From the NCBI GenBank assembly GCA_022823725.1, contig JAJEHL010000041.1, forward strand, positions 1 through 64,000: a stretch of 64,000 bases of DNA, written 5' to 3'. This stretch comes from Candidatus Latescibacterota bacterium. Lineage in GTDB: Bacteria; Latescibacterota; UBA2968. The notes under the pieces are model-generated. The model had not been told where the DNA came from. It saw nothing but the letters and a program-made list of their open reading frames with translations, and made no database searches. The position numbers and the translations under genes are program-made. Below, in pieces: positions 44,829 through 56,347 of the stretch (the stretch's first letter is position 1; each line of letters starts with the position of its first letter).

Positions 44829-46322
44829 TTACGGCAGGTCGGTCGATCCCATGAGGTAGCGGTCTGCTTCGCGGGCGGCACCGCGACCTTCTGCGAAAGC
44901 GAAGACAACGAGGCTCATACCTCGGCGCACATCACCTGCGACAAAGAGGCCGGGGATTTTGGTGGTGAATTCGCCTTCGATGGCTTTGGCGTTGGAGCGT
45001 TCGTCGCGTTCGAGTTCAAGTTCTTCCAGAATGGTATCTTCGGGACCGAGCCAGCCCATGGATAGGAAAACGAGATCGGCAGGCCATTCTTTTTCCGTGC
45101 CGGGCACTTCGCGGAATGGCGCGCCGTTTTCTGCGGGTACCCATTCCACTTGCATGGTTTTTAATGCTTTGAGTGTTCCGTTTTCATCGCCGATAAATTC
45201 TGTGGTGCTAATGAGATATTCGCGTGGGTCTCTGCCAAAAACGGCGGCGGCTTCCTCTTGACCATAATCGGTTTTAAAAATGAGTGGCATTTGTGGCCAG
45301 GGGTTGCTGTCGGTGCGCGTTTTGGGCGGTTCGGGAATAATGTCGAACTGGTACAGACTTTTGCAGCCGTGGCGCATCGCAGTGCCCACGCAGTCGGTTC
45401 CCGTATCCCCGCCGCCGAGCACGATAACGTGTTTGTCTCTGGCGTTTATATAATTGCCGTCTTCATGGTTGGAGTCGAGCAGGCTTTTGGTGTTTTTGTG
45501 CAAATACTCAATGGCCTGATGTACGCCGTTGAGTTCGCGGCCTTTGATGGGCAGGTCGCGGGGTTTGAGGGCGCCAATGCAGAGCACGACCGCGTCGTAT
45601 TCATTGAGGAGATCTTTTGCCAGCAGGTCTTTGCCAATTTCTGTATTGGTGATAAACTCAATACCCGATTCTATCATGAGGTCAATGCGGCGTTGCACAA
45701 CTTCTTTTTTGTCGAGTTTCATGTTCGGGATACCGTACATGAGCAATCCACCAATGCGGTCAGAGCGCTCGTACACGGTGACTTTGTGCCCGGCTTTGTT
45801 GAGTTGTGCCGCGCAAGAGAGGCCTGCGGGGCCTGAACCCACGACAGCCACGCGTTTGCCCGTGCGTTTTTCGGGTATATCGGGTGTGACCCAGCCCTCT
45901 TCCCAACCTTTGTCAATGATGGAAACTTCGATGTTTTTGATGGTGACGGCGGGGTCTGTCATGCCCAGCACACAGGATCCCTCGCAGGGAGCGGGACAAA
46001 CGCGACCCGTAAATTCGGGAAAGTTGTTGGTTTTGTGTAATCGCTCGAGGGCTTCTTTCCACAGGCCGCGATACACGAGATCATTCCATTCGGGAATGAG
46101 GTTGTTGATGGGACAGCCAGAAGGAAAGGGTGTGGATTCGGGCAGGCGCACACCGGTATGGCAAAAGGGTATGCCACAATCCATACATCGCGCACCCTGT
46201 TCACGAAGTTTTTCATCGGGGTGATGATGGTGAAATTCTTCCCAATCTGCGATGCGCTGTGCGGGGTCTCTATCGGCCGGAAGTTCTCGCTGAAATTCCA
46301 TGAATCCGGTCGGTTTTCCCAT
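44829..46322 (-). CDS. gltD: Glutamate synthase small (beta) subunit
   Basis: NADPH-oxidising flavoprotein subunit of GOGAT, 497 residues. N-terminal helical region with the two Fe-S cysteine motifs ([12 protein letters not shown] near 42-53 and CPAPCEGSC near 105), then FAD domain [17 protein letters not shown] near 155, NAD(P)H domain [13 protein letters not shown] near 300, and C-terminal FAD contact [26 protein letters not shown]. It passes electrons to GltB, which makes glutamate from glutamine and 2-oxoglutarate. AAGGAG lies seven bases before the ATG, 14 bases after gltB; the terminator follows. Full length, no oddity. Confidence 0.97.
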
Positions 46323-46336
46323 AAATACTCCTTTTT

Positions 46337-49300
46337 TCAGGCTTCAATTTCCACGCCGCGGCGGAATGCTTCGAGCCATGCATCTTCGCCTTTCAAACCC
46401 TCTTGTTGCGCGGTTTCATAAGCAGAGAGAATGCGTTTGTAGGGTTTGGGGAAGACTTTGACGAATTTGGGCAACATGTCATCCCAATGGACGAGGATGT
46501 GTTGCGCCACGCTACTCTCGGTGTAGTCGGCGTGTTTGGTAATCATGCTTTTGAGTTCTTCAATGTCTTCGTCGTTTTGGACGGGTTCGAGATCGACGAG
46601 TTCGGGATTGCAGCGTATGTGGAAATCGCCGTCTTCGTCGAGCACATAAGCTATGCCTCCGGACATGCCGGCTGCAAAGTTGCGTCCGGTTTTGCCCAAA
46701 ATGACAGCCATTCCACCCGTCATATATTCGCAACCGTGGTCACCAATGCCTTCGACGACTGCGCTAACGCCCGAGTTGCGCACGCAGAAGCGTTCGCCCG
46801 CTTGACCGCGAATGAAGGCCTGACCATTGGTCGCACCGTAGAAAGATACATTGCCGATGATGATGTTGTCTTCGGCTTTGAAGGTGGATCCCTTGCGCGG
46901 ATAGACAATTAATTTGCTACCGCACAAGCCTTTGCCAAAATAATCATTGGCGTCGCCTTCGAGGTGGAAGGTGATGCCCGGCGGGGTAAAGGCTGCAAAA
47001 GATTGTCCGGCTGATCCCTCAAAGGTGATGTCAATGGTGTCTTCGGGCAAGCCATCGGGGCCGAACCTGCGCGTGATTTCGCTACCGAGGATGGTGCCGA
47101 CCACGCGGTTGGTATTTTTAATGTCGAATTTTGCGTGTACTTTGCTGCCATCTTTGAGGGCGGGTTCGCAAAGTTCGAGCAAGATCTGGTTGTCCATCGC
47201 GTTTTCGAGACCGTGATCCTGTTCGATCTGGCAATAACGGCCAATGTCGGGATCGGCGTCCGGTTTTTCGAGAATGGGAGACAGGTCCAGATATTTCGCT
47301 TTCCAGTGATCGGTTTTTGCCTGGTGGAGCAGGTCGGTGCGACCGATGAGTTCATCGATGGTGCGCACGCCGAGTTGCGCCATTATTTCGCGCATGTCCT
47401 GTGCGATAAAACGCAAGAAATTGACGACCTGATCGGGGTCGCCCATAAATTTTTTGCGCAGTTCGGGATGCTGTGTAGCCACACCTACAGGACAGGTGTC
47501 GAGATGGCAAACGCGCATCATGATGCAGCCCATGGCGACGAGTGCTGTGGTGGCAAATCCAAATTCTTCGGCACCGAGCAGGGCTGCAATAATCACATCG
47601 CGTCCGGTTTTGAGTTGTCCGTCGGTTTCGACTATGATGCGCGATCTCAGATTGTTGAGCACCAGGGTCTGGTGGGTTTCGGCAACGCCTAATTCCCAGG
47701 GCAGGCCAGCGTGTTTGATGCTGGTTTGCGGCGATGCGCCGGTGCCTCCGTCGAGACCGGAGATGAGCACCACATCGCCGTGGCCTTTGGACACACCCGC
47801 TGCGACGATGCCCACATTGATTTCTGCGACGAGTTTGACATTAATTCTGGCGTGGTGATTGGCATTTTTGAGATCGTGGATGAGTTGCGCCAGATCTTCG
47901 ATGGAGTAAATATCGTGATGCGGCGGCGGTGAAATGAGTTCTACGCCCGGTGTGGAGTGCCGAACCGTGGCAATCCACGGATACACCTTTTTGCCGGGCA
48001 ATTCACCGCCTTCGCCCGGCTTGGCACCCTGCGCCATTTTGATCTGTAATTCTTTGGCATGGACCAGATAATTGCTGGTGACGCCAAAGCGCCCAGAAGC
48101 CACTTGTTTGATGGCGCTGTTTTTGGAATCGCCATTGGGCTCGAGGGTATAACGCGCAGGGTCTTCGCCGCCTTCGCCGGTGTTGCTTTTGCCACCGAGA
48201 CGATTCATCGCGATGGCGAGTGCCTCGTGCGCTTCTTTAGATATCGATCCATAGGACATGGCACCGGACTTAAAGCGTCTGGTGATTGCTTCAACGGGTT
48301 CAACTTCGTCAATGGGAATGGGTTCGCTGGCATAGTTGAAGTCCAGGAGACCGCGCAGGGTCGCCAGGTTTTTGGCCTGTTGGTCGATGAGGGTGGTATA
48401 TTCTTTGTACACGTCGTAATCGTTGATGCGCGTAGCGTGTTGGAGCTTGTGAATCGTAAGGGGGTTAAAGAGGTGATATTCCCCGCCTTGCCGCCACTGA
48501 AAATGCCCGCCTACATCGAGGGTGCTGCCATTGACTGAAATTTCGGGATATGCATCGCGGTGCCGCATCAGGGCTTCTCGAGCAATGACATCGAGGCCAA
48601 TGCCATCTATGCGGGAATCTGTCCAGGTAAAGTATTGATCAATGGTGTTTTTTGAAATGCCAACGGCTTCAAAAATTTGAGCACCCCGATAAGACTTGAT
48701 GGTGGAGATGCCCATTTTGGCCATGACTTTGACCACGCCTTTGGTTGCGGATTTGACATATCCTTTGACCGCCTCGCGGTAGGAGATATCGGTTAACTGC
48801 TTTTCGGAGATCATGTCGGCGAGGCTTTCATAAGCCATATAGGGGTTGATCGCCTGAGCACCATAGCCGATGAGCAAGCAGAAGTGATGAACTTCGCGGG
48901 GTTCTCCTGTTTCGAGAGCAATCCCGACTTTGGTGCGTTTACCTTCTCGGATGAGGTGGTGATGGAGACCGCTCATGGCCAGGAGCGCGGGAATGGGGGC
49001 GTGGTCTTTGTCAATACCGCGGTCTGAAAGAATGAGAATGGTATAACCGTCTTCAATCGCATTGTCGGCTTCTGCACACAATTTATGCATGGCTTTTTCG
49101 AGGCCGGCTTCACCATCGGCCACATTGAAGAGCATGGGAATGGTGGTGGCTTTGAGCCCCGGGCGGTCAACGCCGCGCAACTGTTCGAGTTGCTCATTGG
49201 TCAAAACGGGCGTGTCGAGATGGATTTGTCTGCAACTTTCGGGTTCGGGAATCAGCAGATTGCGCTCTGGACCAATGGTCGCATCGGCTGAGGTGATGAC

Positions 49301-50911
49301 CTCTTCTTTGAGGGGATCGAGAGGTGGATTGGTCACCTGGGCAAAGAGCTGTTTAAAGTAGTTGTAGAGCAAGTGTGGTTTGTTGGACAATACCGCCAAT
49401 GGTGCGTCGTTGCCCATTGATCCGACGGGATCGCGCCCAATTTTGGACATGGGACCAACAAAAATTTTGAGGTCTTCAAACGTGTAGCCAAAAGCCTGTT
49501 GCCGCATGAGCACTTCGGCGTGATTTGTGGGGGGGGCAATGGGGGCGACTGCGGGCAGGTCTTTGAGAGGAATGAGATGGTCGTCGAGCCATTGCTGGTA
49601 GGGATACTCGGAGATCATTGACTGTTTGACTTCGTCATCGGAAATGATACGGCCCTTTTCGGTATCGACGAGAAGGATGCGACCGGGTTGCAATCGACCT
49701 TTGTAAGCGATGCGTTCGGGTTCTAATTCGCAGACACCCGCTTCGGAACTGAGGATGAGCAGGTCGTCTTTGGTGACGTAATAACGCGAGGGACGCAAGC
49801 CATTGCGATCGAGGCAGGCTCCCACGACTTCGCCATCGGTAAAGCCAATAGAAGCCGGGCCATCCCAGGGTTCCATGAGGCAGGAATGGTATTCGTAGAA
49901 GGCGCGCCTTTCGGGACTCATGCTCTCGTGATTTTCCCAGGGTTCGGGAATCATCATGACGGCTGCATGCGCCATTGAGCGGCCAGAAAGAGACAGAAAT
50001 TCAAAGCAGTTGTCAAAGATTGCGGAATCCGAACCGTCTTCGTAGAGGATGGGGATTATTTTTTCTACGTCATCACCCCAGAGTGCTGAAGCCAGCATGG
50101 CCTGTCGGGTTTTCATCCAGTTTTGATTCCCGCGCAGGGTGTTGATTTCGCCGTTGTGGATGAGGTAGCGATAGGGATGCGACCTCTCCCAGGAGGGAAA
50201 GGTGTTGGTGGAAAACCGGGAATGCACGAGGACAATCGCGGCTTCCATGCGGTGATCTTGCAGGTCGGGATAAAATTCGGGCACTTGCATGGGCGTGAGC
50301 ATGCCTTTGTACACAATGGTGCGCGACGACAAGCTGGGGATGTAAAAATTTTCGTCGTGCCCGGCATAGCGGATCGTATTGGTGGCGCGCTTGCGAATGA
50401 CGTAGAGTTTGCGTTCAAATGCCATCGGGTCTGGCAAGTTGGCACTGCGACCAATGAAAATTTGCCACACAACGGGTTCAAAAGACCTGGAGGTGAGGCC
50501 CAGATAGAAGTTGTCGGTGGGGACTTTGCGCCAGCCGAGGACTTCCTGTCCTTCTTCCTGGACAATATCCTCGATAATTTGACGCGTTTTTTGGCGGATG
50601 GATCGATCCTCATCATCGGTCATGAAAATCATGCCGACACCGTATTGACCGGGATCTGGCAGATCGATGCCAACTCCCTTGCAGGCGTGTGCAAAGAACC
50701 GATGTGGGATTTGCATCAAAACACCAGCGCCATCGCCCGTGTTGTCTTCGGCACCGCGCGCGCCCCGGTGGTCGAGACAGACAAGGGATTCGAGAGCCAT
50801 TTTGACGATCTGGTTGGATTTTTCACCTTTGATATTTACGACAAATCCAATGCCACAGGCGTCGCGTTCGTATTTGGGATTGTAGAGTCCGTGTTTGCGA
50901 GGATATGCCAT
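46337..50911 (-). CDS. gltB: Glutamate synthase large (alpha) subunit
   Basis: 1524 residues. After a 17-residue propeptide the class II amidotransferase begins at Cys18 ([15 protein letters not shown]), the nucleophile that releases ammonia from glutamine. The central domain leads to the FMN/Fe-S synthase domain ([27 protein letters not shown]..), where [19 protein letters not shown] carries the three cysteines of the [3Fe-4S] cluster. The C-terminal beta-helix has [15 protein letters not shown] and [16 protein letters not shown]. Ammonia channelling to 2-oxoglutarate takes place within the protein. AAGGAAT before the ATG. It precedes gltD on the same transcript; the hairpin at 50940-50972 lies upstream. 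Confidence 0.97.
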
Positions 50912-50939
50912 AAAATTATTCCTTAATCACATGGCGCGA

Positions 50940-50972
50940 AAATGCCAGAACCGCGATCCGGCCCTGGCATTT
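50940..50972 (-). terminator. Hairpin between ferredoxin and gltB, terminator or attenuator
   Basis: Minus strand AAATGCCAGGGCCG, five-base loop, CGGTTCTGGCATTT, a 14-bp stem with two G-T pairs, then only a short T-run (four T's including the stem end). It lies 24 bases after the ferredoxin stop and 28 bases before gltB, so it may end the ferredoxin transcript and limit read-through into gltB. Confidence 0.6.
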
Positions 50973-50996
50973 GAAAACCGGTTATTTTGTTAGAAG

Positions 50997-51260
50997 CTAT
51001 TCAAAGGCGACTGCATTGATTTCGATGTACTCCAACCATTCGTCCGGCGTGTCTTCTTCGGCGAAGATTGCCTCAACCGGGCATTCGGGTTCACAGGCTC
51101 CGCAGTCGATGCATTCTTCGGGGTGAATATAGAGCATATTGCGACGTTCATCTTCCGGTAACTCGGTTGCGTCGGGTTCGTAGATGCAGTCCACCGGACA
51201 AACTTCCACACAGGCCTTATCCATAACATCAATGCATGGCTCGGCGATAATATAGGCCAT
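50997..51260 (-). CDS. Seven-iron type ferredoxin
   Basis: 87 residues with a ferredoxin fold of the FdxA/Thermus type. Cysteines Cys9, Cys17, Cys21 and Cys25 in the first half ([18 protein letters not shown]) and [12 protein letters not shown] in the second provide a [3Fe-4S] plus [4Fe-4S] pair; an acidic tail ([15 protein letters not shown]) is typical. It is a soluble electron carrier that could serve the siroheme reductase encoded upstream and GltBD, although GltBD normally uses NADPH. AAAGGAAA before the ATG, and a near-perfect promoter 56 bases upstream. Confidence 0.92.
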
Positions 51261-51315
51261 TTTTATTTTCCTTTCCTTTGCTATTGTTCCAACTCATCCG
51301 GCGTTGACTTTGCCA

Positions 51316-51343
51316 AATATACTTATTTGGTTAGCTTTGTCAA
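51316..51343 (-). promoter_or_regulatory. Sigma-70 promoter of the ferredoxin gene
   Basis: Minus strand TTGACA (51343-51338), 16 bases, TATATT (51321-51316). Five of six consensus bases in the -10 and all six in the -35 box, in the gap that follows the 187-residue gene. Confidence 0.68.
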
Positions 51344-51396
51344 GCATTGTAAGTTAAAATTATGATTACAGGTACATAAAAGAAGAAAATTTACTT

Positions 51397-51960
51397 TTAG
51401 GGCAGATTGTCGAGGAGTTTTGCAACGGACCAATCACCTTCGGTGCGAATGTCAAGGGTGAATCGTTGTCCAGTATCTTTTCTGCGTTCGGCAATCACCG
51501 CTGAACCGTTGTAAAGCTGGTGCAACAATGCCTGAAGATCGTCCTTTATGGCATTGTGCGTGTTTTCTGTATTGGGAGCATTGAGGCGGTCGTTGAGGAT
51601 AAGCCTGAGTTCATTTCCTCGGAAAGCGACCGTTTCTTCTGTTTCAAGACGCTGGCAGATTGTACAGGCCGCGCGGATCGCTGAGGACAATTGCTGTGCA
51701 AAATTACCTCCGTTGGGTTGCTTGCGGTTGTAGAGCAAGCCGCGTTTTGCGTCCGTGTCGTCAATGCTGATGTCGTATTCGTGACCGATGAGCAGGGTCA
51801 CGGGACCGTTGGGTACGTGGCTGTAATCGGCTACATCGAGTAGCACATCGGCCCCATTGTGGGCAGAAATCCAGTTGTTGAAGGTTTTGAACCAGGTTCC
51901 AGGTGCGATATTGTGCCCCTGATCGAGATAAAATTTGACGCTGATTTTATGGGTTGGCAT
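51397..51960 (-). CDS. Unknown protein linked to the nitrite/sulfite reductase
   Basis: 187 residues, soluble, slightly acidic. N-terminal strand (KISVKFYLDQ) is followed by GTWFKTFNNWISAHNGADVLLDVADYSHVPNGPVTLLIGHEYDISID, then ARGLLYNRKQ-like and helical segments, and a C-terminal LHQLYNGSAVIAERR and FTLDIRTEGDW. I do not recognise the family. It begins nine bases after the siroheme reductase stop (AAAGGTAATT ribosome site), so the two are surely co-transcribed. The single AACTIC pair is not a metal motif. Possible roles are a chaperone or regulator of the reductase; this is inference from position only. Confidence 0.7.
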   Translation of the reverse strand: MPTHKISVKFYLDQGHNIAPGTWFKTFNNWISAHNGADVLLDVADYSHVPNGPVTLLIGHEYDISIDDTDAKRGLLYNRKQPNGGNFAQQLSSAIRAACTICQRLETEETVAFRGNELRLILNDRLNAPNTENTHNAIKDDLQALLHQLYNGSAVIAERRKDTGQRFTLDIRTEGDWSVAKLLDNLP

Positions 51961-51969
51961 AATTACCTT

Positions 51970-54198
51970 TCACACCACATTCATTTGACCATAACAGGCA
52001 TAAGCTTCTTCGATGAAGAGCTGGGCTTCTTCGACGACCTGATGGGCAATGTCGCGGGTGTATTCGGCGACTTCCTCTTCGTGAACGCGGAAGAGGTAAT
52101 TGGCAAATTTTGCGCCAGCAAACTGGTTGTAGAACAACTCGGTATCGCAAAAGCGCGTGCGAAATTCTTCGACAATGACACCGGCCTCTTCTGGTACGTC
52201 GAGATACTGCGTTTTGACCAGTGCTTTGGCGGCGTGCAACATGGCGCTGAAAGCCGTTTTGTACGCGGCTTCATAGTCGCCTTCCTCCAGGTAGATCTGC
52301 GATTCAAAAGATTCGGTTTCGCAGCCAGACAGTTCAAATTGTACCAGTGAAACCACTTCGCCAGCGCATTCGCCTTTGCCCATATCGCCGAGTGTAAATT
52401 CCCGCGTGTCGCCCCAGTCTGTATAGTAGGAGGAATCTATTTCGTGCATGGGAACCTGCGTGAAGCCCTGAAGCAGGTCTTTGACGTCTTTTTTTCCGAT
52501 GCGCTGGATATAGGCCTGGAAGCTTTCGTCTTTTTCGCGGTTTTCAACATAATTGCCGGTGATGCGTTCGATGACAGCCGGAATATTTTTTGAGGGAATA
52601 GCACCCATGGCAAGACCATAAGATCCCGCATTTTCGGTCCATTGTCCGCCGAGTACGACCTGGAAGTGCGGCACGGTATAGCCATTAATTTTTCGGCTGT
52701 TGCCGTAAAAACCGAGATCGGCTACGTGGTGTTGCCCACAGGAGTTAAAACACCCGCTGATTTTGATGCGGAAGTTTTTGATGGCATCGTCGAGTTGGAG
52801 ATTCTGTTGCGCCAATTGCGTTCGCAACTCCGCTGCGAGACCGCGCGACGAGGAAATGCCCAATTTGCAGGTATCGGTGCCCGGGCAGGCAGTGACATCG
52901 ACGATGGTGCCAGCTCCTGGTTCAGCTAATTCCAGTTCACGCAAGTCATTGTAGAGTGAAACGACATCGGATTCGCTGACCCATCGCAAGATGATGTTTT
53001 GCTCGACGGTAGTGCGAATGGTGTCTTTGACATATTTGCGCGCGATATCGGCCAGATTTCGCATCTGGTCGGATGTGAGATCCCCCAGCGGCAGAGATAT
53101 GGTTGCGACCACATAGCCTTCTTGCCGTTGTTTGTAGATGTTGGTTTCTGCCCAGGCGTCAAATGCTTCGGGACGCGCGACTCCATTGAGGGGAGCAGCG
53201 ATTTTGAGAGGTTCTTCAACGTAGTTATCCAGGTCGTCGAGATAGGCTGTCCACGCTGGGTCTTCGGGCATGATTTTGCGTTCTTCTTCGACCAGACGAA
53301 TAAACTCTTCGATGCCGAGCTTGGCGACGAGGAATTTGATGCGCGCGCGGGCGCGATTTGTTTTTTCGCCCAGGCGGGCAAAAACACGGCATATTGCCTG
53401 CGCTGTGGGCAAGAGTTCTTCGGGAGGCAGAAATTCCGAGTAGAGCTTGGCCTGGTGGGGCACGGCGCCCAAACCGCCACCGACGTAGGTTTCGAACCCG
53501 CGTTTGCCGTCTTTGATGCGCGCGATCATGCCCATGTCGTGCATGCTGGTCAGGCCGCAGGCTTCCTGAGCGCATCCGGAAAAGGCGATTTTGAATTTGC
53601 GACCAAAGTCCTGACAGTCGGGGTGTCCGAGAAGGAATTGGGCAAGGGCATGGGAATACGGCGTGACATCAAATGTTTCGGTGTGACACACGCCCGAGAG
53701 CGGACAGGCCGTGACATTGCGGATGGAGTTTCCGCAGGCCTCGCGGGTGGTAATGCCCACGGCGGCGAGGCGGCGCATGAGGTCGGGTGTGTCTTCGATG
53801 TGTATGTAGTGGATTTGAATATCCTGGCGCGTGGTGATGTGCAATATGCCATCAGAATATTCTTCGGCTATGTCGGCCAATACCTCCATTTGATCGGTGG
53901 TAAGACCGCCATAAGGAATTTTGATGCGCTGCATACCTGGCGCATCCCAGACCGTGTCTGGTCCTTTGAGGAGGTCGCCGCTGGGATAGTCGAGTGCTTT
54001 GGTTATTTGGCCGTCAAAGCGTTGTCCATTGTCGTAGCGCTGGCCGTAAACACCGCGGCGAAGACGGGTTTCGGCAAAGACGCGGTCGTCAATTTGTCCC
54101 TGTTTTTTTTGTTCGATCTGCGCTTCAAACGTATCGATTTCAGCACCTATATCTTCCGGGATCAAATCGCGCAATTCTTCTTTCCAGTTCGCGTTCAT
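51970..54198 (-). CDS. Ferredoxin-type nitrite/sulfite reductase with C-terminal helical extension
   Basis: 742 residues. Two ferrodoxin-like half-domains (GGLTTDQMEVLADIAEEYSDG near 105 and LGDLTSDQMRNLADIARKYVKD near 380) and the siroheme/[4Fe-4S] cysteines in ACPGTDTC near 440 and SGCFNSCGQ near 484 define the family, which reduces nitrite to ammonia or sulfite to sulfide in the cytoplasm. A third set NVTACPLSGVCHTE and SGCAQEACG lies in the N-terminal half, its degenerate counterpart. Usual length is about 500-580; the extra 150 residues after about 590 are helical (EAAYKTAFSAMLHAAKALVK, EEEVAEYTRDIAHQVVEEAQLF) and look HEPN-like. AGGTGAT before the ATG. Confidence 0.85.
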   Translation of the reverse strand: MNANWKEELRDLIPEDIGAEIDTFEAQIEQKKQGQIDDRVFAETRLRRGVYGQRYDNGQRFDGQITKALDYPSGDLLKGPDTVWDAPGMQRIKIPYGGLTTDQMEVLADIAEEYSDGILHITTRQDIQIHYIHIEDTPDLMRRLAAVGITTREACGNSIRNVTACPLSGVCHTETFDVTPYSHALAQFLLGHPDCQDFGRKFKIAFSGCAQEACGLTSMHDMGMIARIKDGKRGFETYVGGGLGAVPHQAKLYSEFLPPEELLPTAQAICRVFARLGEKTNRARARIKFLVAKLGIEEFIRLVEEERKIMPEDPAWTAYLDDLDNYVEEPLKIAAPLNGVARPEAFDAWAETNIYKQRQEGYVVATISLPLGDLTSDQMRNLADIARKYVKDTIRTTVEQNIILRWVSESDVVSLYNDLRELELAEPGAGTIVDVTACPGTDTCKLGISSSRGLAAELRTQLAQQNLQLDDAIKNFRIKISGCFNSCGQHHVADLGFYGNSRKINGYTVPHFQVVLGGQWTENAGSYGLAMGAIPSKNIPAVIERITGNYVENREKDESFQAYIQRIGKKDVKDLLQGFTQVPMHEIDSSYYTDWGDTREFTLGDMGKGECAGEVVSLVQFELSGCETESFESQIYLEEGDYEAAYKTAFSAMLHAAKALVKTQYLDVPEEAGVIVEEFRTRFCDTELFYNQFAGAKFANYLFRVHEEEVAEYTRDIAHQVVEEAQLFIEEAYACYGQMNVV

Positions 54199-54309
54199 AA
54201 GTATATCACCTGTGGCGAAGATTGTAGATTGAACATGATCAAAAATCGAATGTGAAACTTAGTGTATTATGGGGATTTGTCAAGGGTAAAAGGTAAGAGG
54301 TAAGAGGTA

Positions 54310-55320
54310 TTATCCCCCAATTTGATACATTTCGATTTTGCGCGTTGCCGGGGTGTGAGCAGAGCGGATTTCGGAGTAGCGGTCTGTGCGGCGGTGCCAT
54401 ATCCGGGTGATCTGGTCGCGGATATGGGCGTTGGACGCGCCTCGTCGCAGAGCCTCGCGCAGGTCTGTCCCCTCTGAGGCGAAGAGACAGGTGTATAGTT
54501 TGCCGTCGGTAGATAAGCGGGCGCGCGTACAGTCGCCGCAAAAGGGTTGCGTGACAGAGGCGATGACTCCGATTTCACCGCCGCCGTCGAGATAGCGATA
54601 GCGTTTTGCGACTTCGCCTGTGTAGTTGGGGTCGAGAGGCTCGATAGGTAAGACGGTGTGAATGCGGTCGATAATTTCTGCGGCGGGCACGACCTGATCC
54701 AGGTTCCAGTTGTTGCGATTGCCCACGTCCATAAACTCGATGAATCGCAGGATGTGTCCCGTGTTGTGGAAGTGTTGGGCAAGGTCGATAACGAGATGGT
54801 CATTGATGCCTTTTTGTACAACTGCGTTGATTTTTATCGCTTGAAAGCCCGCTTTTTTAGCTGCGCGGATGCCTTCGAGTACGCGCTCGGTGCCATAGGT
54901 GCGGCCGCTCATGAGATTAAAGGTCTGGTCGTCAATTGCATCGAGGCTCACGGTGAGCCGGTGCAGGCCTGCGTCTTTGAGGCTCTGCGCTTTGTCGGCG
55001 AGGAGATAGCCGTTGGTGGTGAGGGTGAGGTCCTGAATGCCATTGATCTGCGACAGTTTGGCGATGAGGGTTTCGAGGTCTCGGCGCAGGAGGGGTTCAC
55101 CGCCGGTAACGCGGATTTTGGTGACGCCGAGATCCGCGAAAATTCTGGCGAGGCGGGTGATTTCTTCAAAGGTGAGGATTTCTGCTTTGGGAAGAAATTC
55201 ATATTTTTCGCCAAAAATTTCGGCGGGCATGCAATAGGGACAGCGGAAATTGCATTTGTCGGTGACCGAAATACGCAGGTCGCGGATGGGGCGTTGCAAG
55301 GTGTCGAGGAGATCGGACAT
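54310..55320 (-). CDS. moaA: GTP 3',8-cyclase MoaA (molybdopterin biosynthesis)
   Basis: Radical-SAM enzyme that starts molybdenum-cofactor synthesis from GTP. 336 residues: N-terminal radical-SAM motif CNFRCPYCMP near 23-32, IRVTGGEPLLRRDLETL near 67, and the second cluster CGDCTRARLSTDGKLYTC near 258-275. The last residues are the conserved GG (EMYQIGG), essential for catalysis. Located 10 bases after the endonuclease/phosphatase lipoprotein gene. No moaC, moeA or moaE is in the window. Alternative radical-SAM roles (NirJ, PqqE) lack the second motif and the GG end, so the assignment is firm. Confidence 0.95.
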   Translation of the reverse strand: MSDLLDTLQRPIRDLRISVTDKCNFRCPYCMPAEIFGEKYEFLPKAEILTFEEITRLARIFADLGVTKIRVTGGEPLLRRDLETLIAKLSQINGIQDLTLTTNGYLLADKAQSLKDAGLHRLTVSLDAIDDQTFNLMSGRTYGTERVLEGIRAAKKAGFQAIKINAVVQKGINDHLVIDLAQHFHNTGHILRFIEFMDVGNRNNWNLDQVVPAAEIIDRIHTVLPIEPLDPNYTGEVAKRYRYLDGGGEIGVIASVTQPFCGDCTRARLSTDGKLYTCLFASEGTDLREALRRGASNAHIRDQITRIWHRRTDRYSEIRSAHTPATRKIEMYQIGG

Positions 55321-55330
55321 TGTGATACCA

Positions 55331-56347
55331 TTAGAATTTTAAGATTGTCCATACGGGTACGTGATCCGAAGCAAAGTCGCCGCGTGTGGTATAGACGATT
55401 TCGCCATCAGAGAAACTGATGCGCGAGCGGGTTCCCTTCACGGCTTCGGCGCGGGTGAAAATACCCGATGATTGGACGTGATCCTTCAGGTTTCGGGACA
55501 CGAGGATTTGATCGAAAAGAATCGCTTTGACTTTGACGTCTCGCATAAAATTGTGGGGTCTGTCTCGCCATTTGTTGTTTTCTGTGCGCGCACCCGGGAC
55601 CACGGGATCAAAGGTATCGCTTTCGATTTTGTCGTAGAGATAGTTGTATCCATAAGAACAATAGTTCGAATCTAACAGGCTCTCGGATGTGTTGTAGAGA
55701 AATGCATCGGGTACATGGTCGATTCCGGCAAGGGCGTCGGGATCGCCGGATTCGAGAATGTTGAGCGAGCGGTCGTCGGGGTTGTCGTTGAAGTCGCCGA
55801 GCAATACGATGTGGTCGTATTTCACGCGGCTGGTGAGATAGCGCATGGTCATGGTCGCGCTGGCTTCTCGGCGCGCGCTGGTTTTGGCGCGACCACCCGA
55901 TCGCGATTTGGCGTGGTGAACCAGAATAATCAAGCGGCGTCCATATCCTTCGACATAGGCCTGGAGAAGATCGCGTTTTCGGGGAAATGCCTGGTCGTGT
56001 ACTTTTTCGGGAAAGACCATTTTGAGGTCGGTAATTTCAAATGGCTCGCGCACAGCTATGGCGAGTTCCTGGCGTTCTTCGGGATCATCGAGCATGCCAA
56101 TGGTATAGTTGTCGGGCAAAATGCGTTCGAGTGCGGATTTTGATTGGATTTCCTGAAACCCGATGATGTCCGCATTGAGTTTGTCTATAACTGTTTGCAG
56201 GCGTTCCTGGCGCGCAGCGGAAATGCCATCGTCGAGCCAATAGATGTTGTAAGTCGCAACCTTGATCTCGGCGGGCTGTGGGCCACACGCAAAAAATAGA
56301 AGCAGAATTAGGGAGGCGAGATATGTCCTCCTTACGCGTTTTTGCAT
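55331..56347 (-). CDS. Endonuclease/exonuclease/phosphatase family lipoprotein
   Basis: 338 residues. The start chosen is ATG 56347 (GGAG eight bases upstream), giving a lipoprotein signal MQKRVRRTYLASLILLLFFAC with a cysteine at position 21; the longer frame from 56467 adds a second, unlikely hydrophobic start. The DNase-I-like fold is seen in VATYNIYWL near 34, IIGFQEIQS near 70 (metal glutamate), LIILVHHAKSR, VLLGDFNDNPDD near 205 and the C-terminal FASDHVPVW (catalytic D-H). Members cleave nucleic acids or phosphodiesters. As a membrane-anchored periplasmic enzyme it may scavenge nucleic acids or phosphate. Ten bases upstream of moaA, without obvious functional link. Confidence 0.82.
   Translation of the reverse strand: MQKRVRRTYLASLILLLFFACGPQPAEIKVATYNIYWLDDGISAARQERLQTVIDKLNADIIGFQEIQSKSALERILPDNYTIGMLDDPEERQELAIAVREPFEITDLKMVFPEKVHDQAFPRKRDLLQAYVEGYGRRLIILVHHAKSRSGGRAKTSARREASATMTMRYLTSRVKYDHIVLLGDFNDNPDDRSLNILESGDPDALAGIDHVPDAFLYNTSESLLDSNYCSYGYNYLYDKIESDTFDPVVPGARTENNKWRDRPHNFMRDVKVKAILFDQILVSRNLKDHVQSSGIFTRAEAVKGTRSRISFSDGEIVYTTRGDFASDHVPVWTILKF

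Follow-up and report, generated by a model that had tools for sequence, protein, structure and literature searches.

A siroheme reductase with a HEPN-type extension and an uncharacterised partner protein: a candidate assimilatory sulfite reductase system in Latescibacterota and other bacteria

Assimilatory sulfite reductase is a duplicated and fused protein in which the N-terminal half has lost its cluster motif, according to the accessible portion of a 2023 study (PMC10229431). The same portion describes DsrAB as having two siroheme-[4Fe-4S] cysteine motifs, one catalytic and one without catalytic residues, with DsrA and DsrB as separate chains and CXnCCX3C as the DsrB motif, and DsrC as a protein whose C-terminal arm cysteine takes an intermediate from DsrAB. 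In the accessible part of a later report (PMC13188885, 2026), four assimilatory sulfite reductases are stated to release zero-valent sulfur first. Here, we analyzed a gene pair in a 64,000-nucleotide stretch of a Candidatus Latescibacterota genome (GenBank assembly GCA_022823725.1, contig JAJEHL010000041.1, positions 1 to 64,000; hereafter, the window). The pair encodes a siroheme reductase with a HEPN-type extension and a small partner protein. The reading that we favor, with moderate confidence, is that the two represent a ferredoxin-dependent assimilatory sulfite reductase and a dedicated accessory protein that would form a complex scaffolded by the HEPN domain. As judged from the sequences, the catalytic half of the reductase is complete, the extension consists of a cysteine motif and a HEPN domain, and the partner is an almost obligate neighbor of the reductase clade.

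Compared with the ferredoxin-dependent assimilatory sulfite reductases of the NirA/Sir type (Thermus and Mycobacterium NirA), the window reductase has in common the two fused NIR_SIR repeats, the catalytic motif, the sulfite-binding residues and the assimilation context, while its clade has in addition the HEPN domain, the partner gene and a full set of four cluster-type cysteines in the N-terminal half. By analogy, it resembles DsrAB and DsrC in having two cluster motifs, one of them without catalytic residues, and a C-terminal arm cysteine. Unlike DsrAB, it is a single fused chain with CX5CXnCX3C in its catalytic half, and no Fer4 domain was listed within it in the Pfam scan. Its extension shares profile similarity with the HEPN superfamily (PF05168; 2hsb, UPF0332) but lacks a conserved R-x4-6-H and is fused to a reductase. 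The Proteobacterial nitrite/sulfite reductases that occur with DUF2849 and DUF934 are also of the ferredoxin type, with small neighbors of unknown function and with siroheme or cysH genes nearby; the two DUF934-type reductases that were compared, unlike the window clade, have neither the HEPN length nor the GECA motif nor the N-terminal-half cysteines. Three NIR_SIR-HEPN-TusA fusions (genomes G021, G051 and G074) have a related extension, GECA or GECG, and the N-terminal-half cysteines, but differ in having a C-terminal TusA domain and no adjacent partner gene. A HEPN-extended siroheme reductase with such a partner was not described in the titles and abstract openings among the matches listed from an open-access library, with a mention in the HEPN superfamily paper PMC3710099 possible. 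The one paper found there that links HEPN to sulfite reductase is an unrelated fungal study, and the accessible portions of PMC3448663 and PMC10504309 do not mention a HEPN-reductase architecture.

Genome contigs yielded 150 relatives of the partner when scanned, and the analysis used the best 80 of them (the 80 partner loci). The extension was encoded upstream of the partner on the same strand in 79 of the 80 loci (at L136 and L190 the contig begins inside the reductase), and the gap in the 75 measurable pairs was -1 to 393 bases, with a median of 13. The loci are titled Latescibacterota, Gemmatimonadota, Handelsmanbacteria, Acidobacteria, Gammaproteobacteria, Deltaproteobacteria, Planctomycetota/Phycisphaerae, Verrucomicrobia, Neomarinimicrobiota, Chloroflexi, Binatia, Myxococcales, Cyanobacteria and Hydrogenedentota, or about ten phyla as a count of submitters' labels, nearly all of them on metagenome-assembled genomes (MAGs). 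The Ectothiorhodospiraceae record WFHF3C12 (L177) alone among the 80 titles lacks the word 'MAG' and may represent a cultured host. The closest titled record (L115), with 98% identity in the partner, is a Candidatus Latescibacterota MAG.

In the reverse count of 60 genomes (the window's own and its relatives), 45 had the extension, 45 had the partner and 44 had both. Only G021 among these 44 carried the two on different contigs, while G051 had a weak extension without a partner and G013 had a partner fragment only. Relatives that have the extension gave one extension match per genome, and the partner profile matched 45 of the 64 genomes of the window's phylum, all within the window's class. 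In a second phylum, that of G064 (the genome of locus L178, titled Acidobacteria), the extension was found in 18 of 199 genomes and the partner in 16 of the 18, always on the same strand and 35 to 95 bases away. All 16 strong extension matches in this phylum have an adjacent partner; the two without it are weak matches, namely the TusA fusion of G074, which lies beside sat and cysH, and a divergent form in G252, which lies beside cysH. A tree of 87 reductases contains a branch, with an SH-aLRT support of 100, that has all 74 partner-bearing proteins on the same side; the TusA-fused reductase of G021 is next to them.

The ratio of nonsynonymous to synonymous substitution rates (dN/dS) among six close relatives was 0.03 to 0.15 for the extension and 0.09 to 0.24 for the partner, indicating purifying selection. 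Since both parts are under purifying selection and are syntenic across distant bacteria, the pair is more than a product of chance. The original prediction, made from the sequence of the window, had named a lack of co-conservation of the partner as the result that would count against it; instead, co-conservation held in the loci (79/80), in the window's relatives (both in 44/60) and in the second phylum (16/18). It had also proposed a complex with the adjacent ferredoxin. The adjacency stands, as the neighboring gene encodes an 87-residue Fer4 protein, but the ferredoxin is not a fixed third part, because only 33 of the 80 loci, all of the Latescibacterota type, showed a ferredoxin gene in the vicinity of the partner.

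Judged by the searches of Pfam, NCBIfam and the PDB, the partner appears to represent a protein family that has yet to be described. It matched no Pfam or NCBIfam family, no Pfam row fell below an E value of 0.04 among 65 aligned relatives, its profiles found no credible relative among the PDB sequences (best E values, 0.72 and 0.087), and it had no match in the plasmid collection. These searches bear out the earlier statement that the protein could not be placed. Its structure, predicted from the 65-sequence alignment, has a predicted local distance difference test score (pLDDT) of 92.4 and a predicted template modeling score (pTM) of 0.89. The comparison of this fold with the PDB and viral models returned nothing at E ≤ 0.001, which does not demonstrate a new fold. 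Two candidate identities were rejected: a sulfur carrier, as no cysteine column exceeds 60%, and a form of DUF934, with an hhalign probability of 0.2% against a two-sequence DUF934 profile.

The top Foldseek rows for the partner were S-adenosylmethionine decarboxylases, with an E value of 5.5e-3 and TM scores of 0.3 to 0.4, below the safe threshold; a VIA comparison gave a Z score of up to 7.0 and a root mean square deviation of 4.8 over 136 residues, with TBP and others within 1 Z unit. The resemblance may hint at small-molecule binding, and the partner could act in the pathway as an enzyme on its own and not as a subunit. Nine residues are invariant in the family (L40, D42, V43, D45, Y46, H48, G74, D124 and R125), among which D42, D45, Y46, H48, D124 and R125 could form an active or ligand site. 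We consider a free enzyme unlikely, if still worth serious attention, because the fold match is below the safe threshold, with TBP scoring nearly as well, and because the occurrence of the partner is tied to one reductase clade.

Pfam recognized two NIR_SIR and two NIR_SIR_ferr stretches in the window reductase, and the DsrA and DsrB profiles scored far below their cut-offs. The cluster cysteines C438, C444, C483 and C487 share alignment columns with C434, C440, C479 and C483 of E. coli CysI, and the siroheme-[4Fe-4S] motif CX5CXnCX3C of the C-terminal half is complete in all 74 partner-type reductases (73 full-length proteins from the 80 loci and the window protein; the other seven were truncated or absent). 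R91, R160, K201 and K203 align with R83, R153, K215 and K217, which bind sulfite in E. coli CysI, and this Arg/Arg/Lys/Lys set is also invariant in the 74 proteins.

The genes cysC, cysH, sat, cobA or a precorrin-2 dehydrogenase gene were found by tblastn within 6 kb in 12 of the 80 partner loci, and a cysteine-synthase-type (PALP) gene was found within 6 kb in three further loci (L171, L182 and L194; Pfam-checked for L194 only), giving a sulfate-assimilation link in 15 of the 80. For the Latescibacterota-type set, to which none of these 15 loci belongs, the link comes from the window's own genome, where one PALP gene and one JAB-type gene stand side by side with cysH on another contig. That genome is 98% complete, and both of its NIR_SIR matches fall in a single protein, the window reductase. 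The best relative without a HEPN domain in the plasmid collection, a Thermus protein with 40.6% identity, adjoins PAPS reductase and ATP sulfurylase genes. The sole PF00384 protein of the window's genome fits the NCBIfam profile of formate dehydrogenase alpha (E = 1.7e-190) better than that of NasC (E = 4.8e-117); because this only PF00384 protein is formate-dehydrogenase-alpha-like, no molybdenum nitrate reductase was found in the genome by the PF00384 search, other nitrate-assimilation genes not having been searched for. The retained Arg/Lys set, the position of relatives near cysH, siroheme and cysteine-synthase genes, the cysH of the genome itself, and the lack of a molybdenum nitrate reductase match together make sulfite very probably the substrate. 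The assimilatory role suggested in the original prediction is likewise supported.

Assimilatory nitrite reduction, with the ammonium feeding the gltBD enzymes encoded next door, is on this evidence a poor alternative. The closest solved relatives of the reductase are plant nitrite reductases, the window has gltBD downstream and moaA upstream of the pair, and a gltB-like cluster occurs in 19 of the 80 partner loci. On the other hand, K203 of the window reductase is replaced by Asn in the solved tobacco nitrite reductase, at a position that we take to separate sulfite from nitrite activity; a literature search on this tobacco residue returned nothing. The better fit of the PF00384 protein to formate dehydrogenase alpha than to NasC, the cysH and siroheme genes beside relatives, and the presence of cysH in a genome that has no NIR_SIR protein other than this reductase also speak against nitrite. 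Genes of the gltB type occur near the pair in the window's lineage and also at the Acidobacteria-titled L178, L184, L187 and L189. The gene for the PF00384 protein (L239; G000:C30:2133-3401) has an in-frame TGA, possibly encoding selenocysteine.

The reductase profiles end near residue 577 and leave about 165 residues, in agreement with the roughly 150 extra helical residues that had been noted at the C-terminus. This extension (residues 581 to 742) has two parts, a cysteine linker with the motif GECA and a HEPN-superfamily domain. The linker cysteine, Cys611, is invariant in the 74 partner-type reductases, and GECAG is present in all 73 of the full-length locus proteins. GECA or GECG also occurs in the three TusA-fused forms and in two Bacteroidota reductases; it was not found in the two DUF934-type proteins or in those of Deinococcus, Chlorohelix, Haladaptatus and E. 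coli. The Thermus reductase, which lacks HEPN, has GECA at its extreme C-terminus (...GRGECAV), and the motif may thus predate the HEPN addition.

The original prediction had called the extension HEPN-like and proposed a HEPN profile search. The profile of the extension matched the solved HEPN proteins 2hsb (E = 1.6e-4), 9xbd (0.003) and 9xbc (0.007), in line with that description. Pfam PF05168 reached an E value of 0.5 on the window reductase, below the cut-off; of the 44 aligned extensions, 24 were listed with this family at E ≤ 1, the best value being 4.5e-5. The fusion is not confined to the window's lineage, since it is also seen on Bacteroidota plasmids and in the TusA-fused forms. On the plasmids, of Persicobacter and Aureibacter, the related fusion has weak Pfam HEPN matches (0.004 and 0.02), and cobA adjoins it on both annotated plasmids.

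HEPN superfamily similarity and the tight two-gene layout would also suit an active or regulatory, toxin-like ribonuclease with the partner as its antidote. We consider this very improbable, although no defence libraries were searched. Strings of R-x4-6-H occur in 15 of the 44 extensions at scattered positions and not in the window extension, so the HEPN part is not a conserved ribonuclease; the original prediction had already noted that the motif is not visible in the window extension, and no conserved position for it emerged across the 44. The domain is moreover fused to a metabolic enzyme, with one match per genome and sulfate-assimilation genes near some relatives. A chance arrangement of genes in a single lineage can practically be dismissed as the origin of the pair: only two exceptions, L168 and G021, could be cited for it, and it is contradicted by 79 of the 80 loci under about ten phylum labels and by all 16 strong matches in the second phylum.

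In the favored reading of a HEPN-scaffolded sulfite reductase complex, ferredoxin would pass electrons to the [4Fe-4S]-siroheme center of the C-terminal half, where sulfite would be reduced. The HEPN domain could serve as a dimerization or docking platform, to which the partner might bind, either as a structural subunit or as one that handles the product. Sulfide or zero-valent sulfur would then go to cysteine synthase. The GECA arm cysteine could conceivably accept zero-valent sulfur, in a way similar to that in which DsrC receives the intermediate from DsrAB.

A number of observations weigh against this reading. No sulfur gene of the searched set lies within 6 kb in 65 of the 80 partner loci, and none of the 15 sulfur-linked loci is of the Latescibacterota type, the lineage of the window. 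The neighbors of the Latescibacterota-type loci are instead gltBD or genes that we take to be pyruvate-dehydrogenase-like. The HEPN matches are individually weak, and one Pfam scan found the domain in only two of six related proteins, both below the cut-off. The 80 loci were selected through the partner, and the count of 79 cannot tell how often the reductase stands alone, a question that only the reverse count of 60 genomes and the survey of the G064 phylum address; the reductase tree was built by a quick method, with long outgroup branches and rows picked by the partner. In 4 of the 16 partner-bearing genomes of the G064 phylum, the partner match crosses one stop codon. Finally, a partner homolog follows an unrelated gene at L168 (485-1075, titled Hydrogenedentota), and in G021 it lies at the start of another contig (L075:261-851), while the TusA-fused reductase of that genome has no adjacent partner. 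Because these two homologs are not next to a HEPN reductase, the partner family extends a little beyond the reductase clade.

The invariant GECA cysteine and a second cysteine quartet are features that the original prediction did not contain. C165, C171, C209 and C214 of the N-terminal half are each present in all 74 partner-type reductases; the loss of the N-terminal motif, leaving a single cluster motif, was thus not seen in any of them. Since 75 of the 235 columns of the N-terminal half are invariant, invariance alone says little, and the key point is that the quartet coincides with homologous cluster positions: it aligns onto the catalytic quartet when the two halves are compared by hhalign (E = 1.3e-15). 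The mirror positions of the sulfite-binding set are occupied by T at 366 (68/74), mostly V or A at 433, mostly G, D or N at 475, and R or H at 477 (72/74). Because this mirror basic set is not kept, any second site would have a structural role, like the one in DsrA.

The retention of N-terminal-half cysteines is graded in the aligned sequences, with three of four being common, and what sets the partner-type clade apart is that its motif is both complete and invariant. All four cysteines occur in the three TusA fusions (with CX4C or CX3C), three in Haladaptatus and two each in Thermus and G252, and none were found in the alignment in the two Bacteroidota, the two DUF934-type, Deinococcus, Chlorohelix and E. 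coli proteins. Among the 30 best NIR_SIR loci of the G064 phylum, 23 yielded a protein that could be used. The full pattern was found in 10 of the 23: seven of the partner type, L215 (from a genome with the partner), L211, which is a TusA fusion, and L214, a fragment at the edge of a contig whose genome has no extension match. Only C171 was missing in eight (L209, L210, L212, L213, L220, L221, L223 and L224), two cysteines were left in L222, L232 and L237, and fewer in L216 and L236. The novelty of the quartet is tempered by the several other reductases that keep three of four. It is conceivable, though we think it improbable, that both siroheme-[4Fe-4S] sites of the ancestral duplication were kept or regained, one of them as a structural site, that the GECA arm is DsrC-like, and that sulfur exits as a protein persulfide and not as free sulfide. 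In one branch it would pass to the fused TusA domain, and in the other it would leave by way of the partner system bound to HEPN.

A clade with both cysteine motifs complete makes the history of the N-terminal-half loss directly testable on one purified protein. The cysteine arm, the TusA fusions and the near-obligate partner offer a concrete place for released zero-valent sulfur. The records, labeled as about ten phyla, describe a widespread sulfite reductase variant and a functionally uncharacterised partner family for which the structure prediction is confident.

The features of the locus are listed in Table 1. Downstream of the ferredoxin gene lie genes that we take, from their sequences, to be gltB (46337-50911) and gltD (44829-46322). 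The intergenic gap between the reductase and partner genes is 9 bases, and the two open reading frames lie as originally described.

Table 1. Features of the reductase-partner locus (positions in the window)
Feature	Position	Strand	Basis
Siroheme reductase, probable assimilatory sulfite reductase, 742 amino acids: two NIR_SIR repeats, Cys linker and HEPN	51970..54198	-	Open reading frame, Pfam, NCBIfam
Partner protein, 187 amino acids, uncharacterised family	51397..51960	-	Open reading frame; profile searches
N-terminal-half cysteine quartet C165-X5-C171...C209-X4-C214, possible second [4Fe-4S]/siroheme site	53557..53706	-	Invariant in 74/74
C-terminal-half siroheme-[4Fe-4S] motif C438-X5-C444...C483-X3-C487, predicted catalytic center	52738..52887	-	CysI alignment
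GKGECA motif (residues 607-612, Cys611), linker between reductase and HEPN	52363..52380	-	Conserved motif
HEPN-type helical domain (residues ~617-730), no conserved R-x4-6-H	52009..52350	-	Profile similarity
Small ferredoxin, 87 amino acids, downstream of the pair; likely electron donor	50997..51260	-	Pfam Fer4
moaA, upstream of the pair	54310-55320		

An Rfam scan of positions 50800-55500 gave no match reaching the gathering score. One good sigma-70-like site (51343-51316; 11 of 12 positions) lies before the ferredoxin gene, in a promoter scan that was weak overall, with 7 sites against 3.6 expected in shuffles. A TusA search of the window's genome gave one match over the cut-off (E = 3.6e-7) and one below it, on contig C20.

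Sulfur-transfer genes and domains were also seen at other loci. At L194 (6624-10093), the partner gene is followed by the PALP gene and then by JAB-type and presumably ThiS/ThiF-like genes, an arrangement resembling sulfur-carrier-dependent cysteine synthesis. At L076 (878-8243), the NIR_SIR-HEPN-TusA fusion of G051, in which the NIR_SIR and TusA domains were Pfam-tested, directly follows genes that we take to be iscR-, iscS-, iscU-, larE-, larB- and larC-like. This neighborhood suggests a link of sulfite reduction, persulfide supply and nickel-pincer cofactor synthesis. On a Natronococcus plasmid (L208:586-2985), a siroheme reductase is annotated as rhodanese-like domain-containing and is perhaps another fusion of such a reductase with a sulfur-transfer domain.

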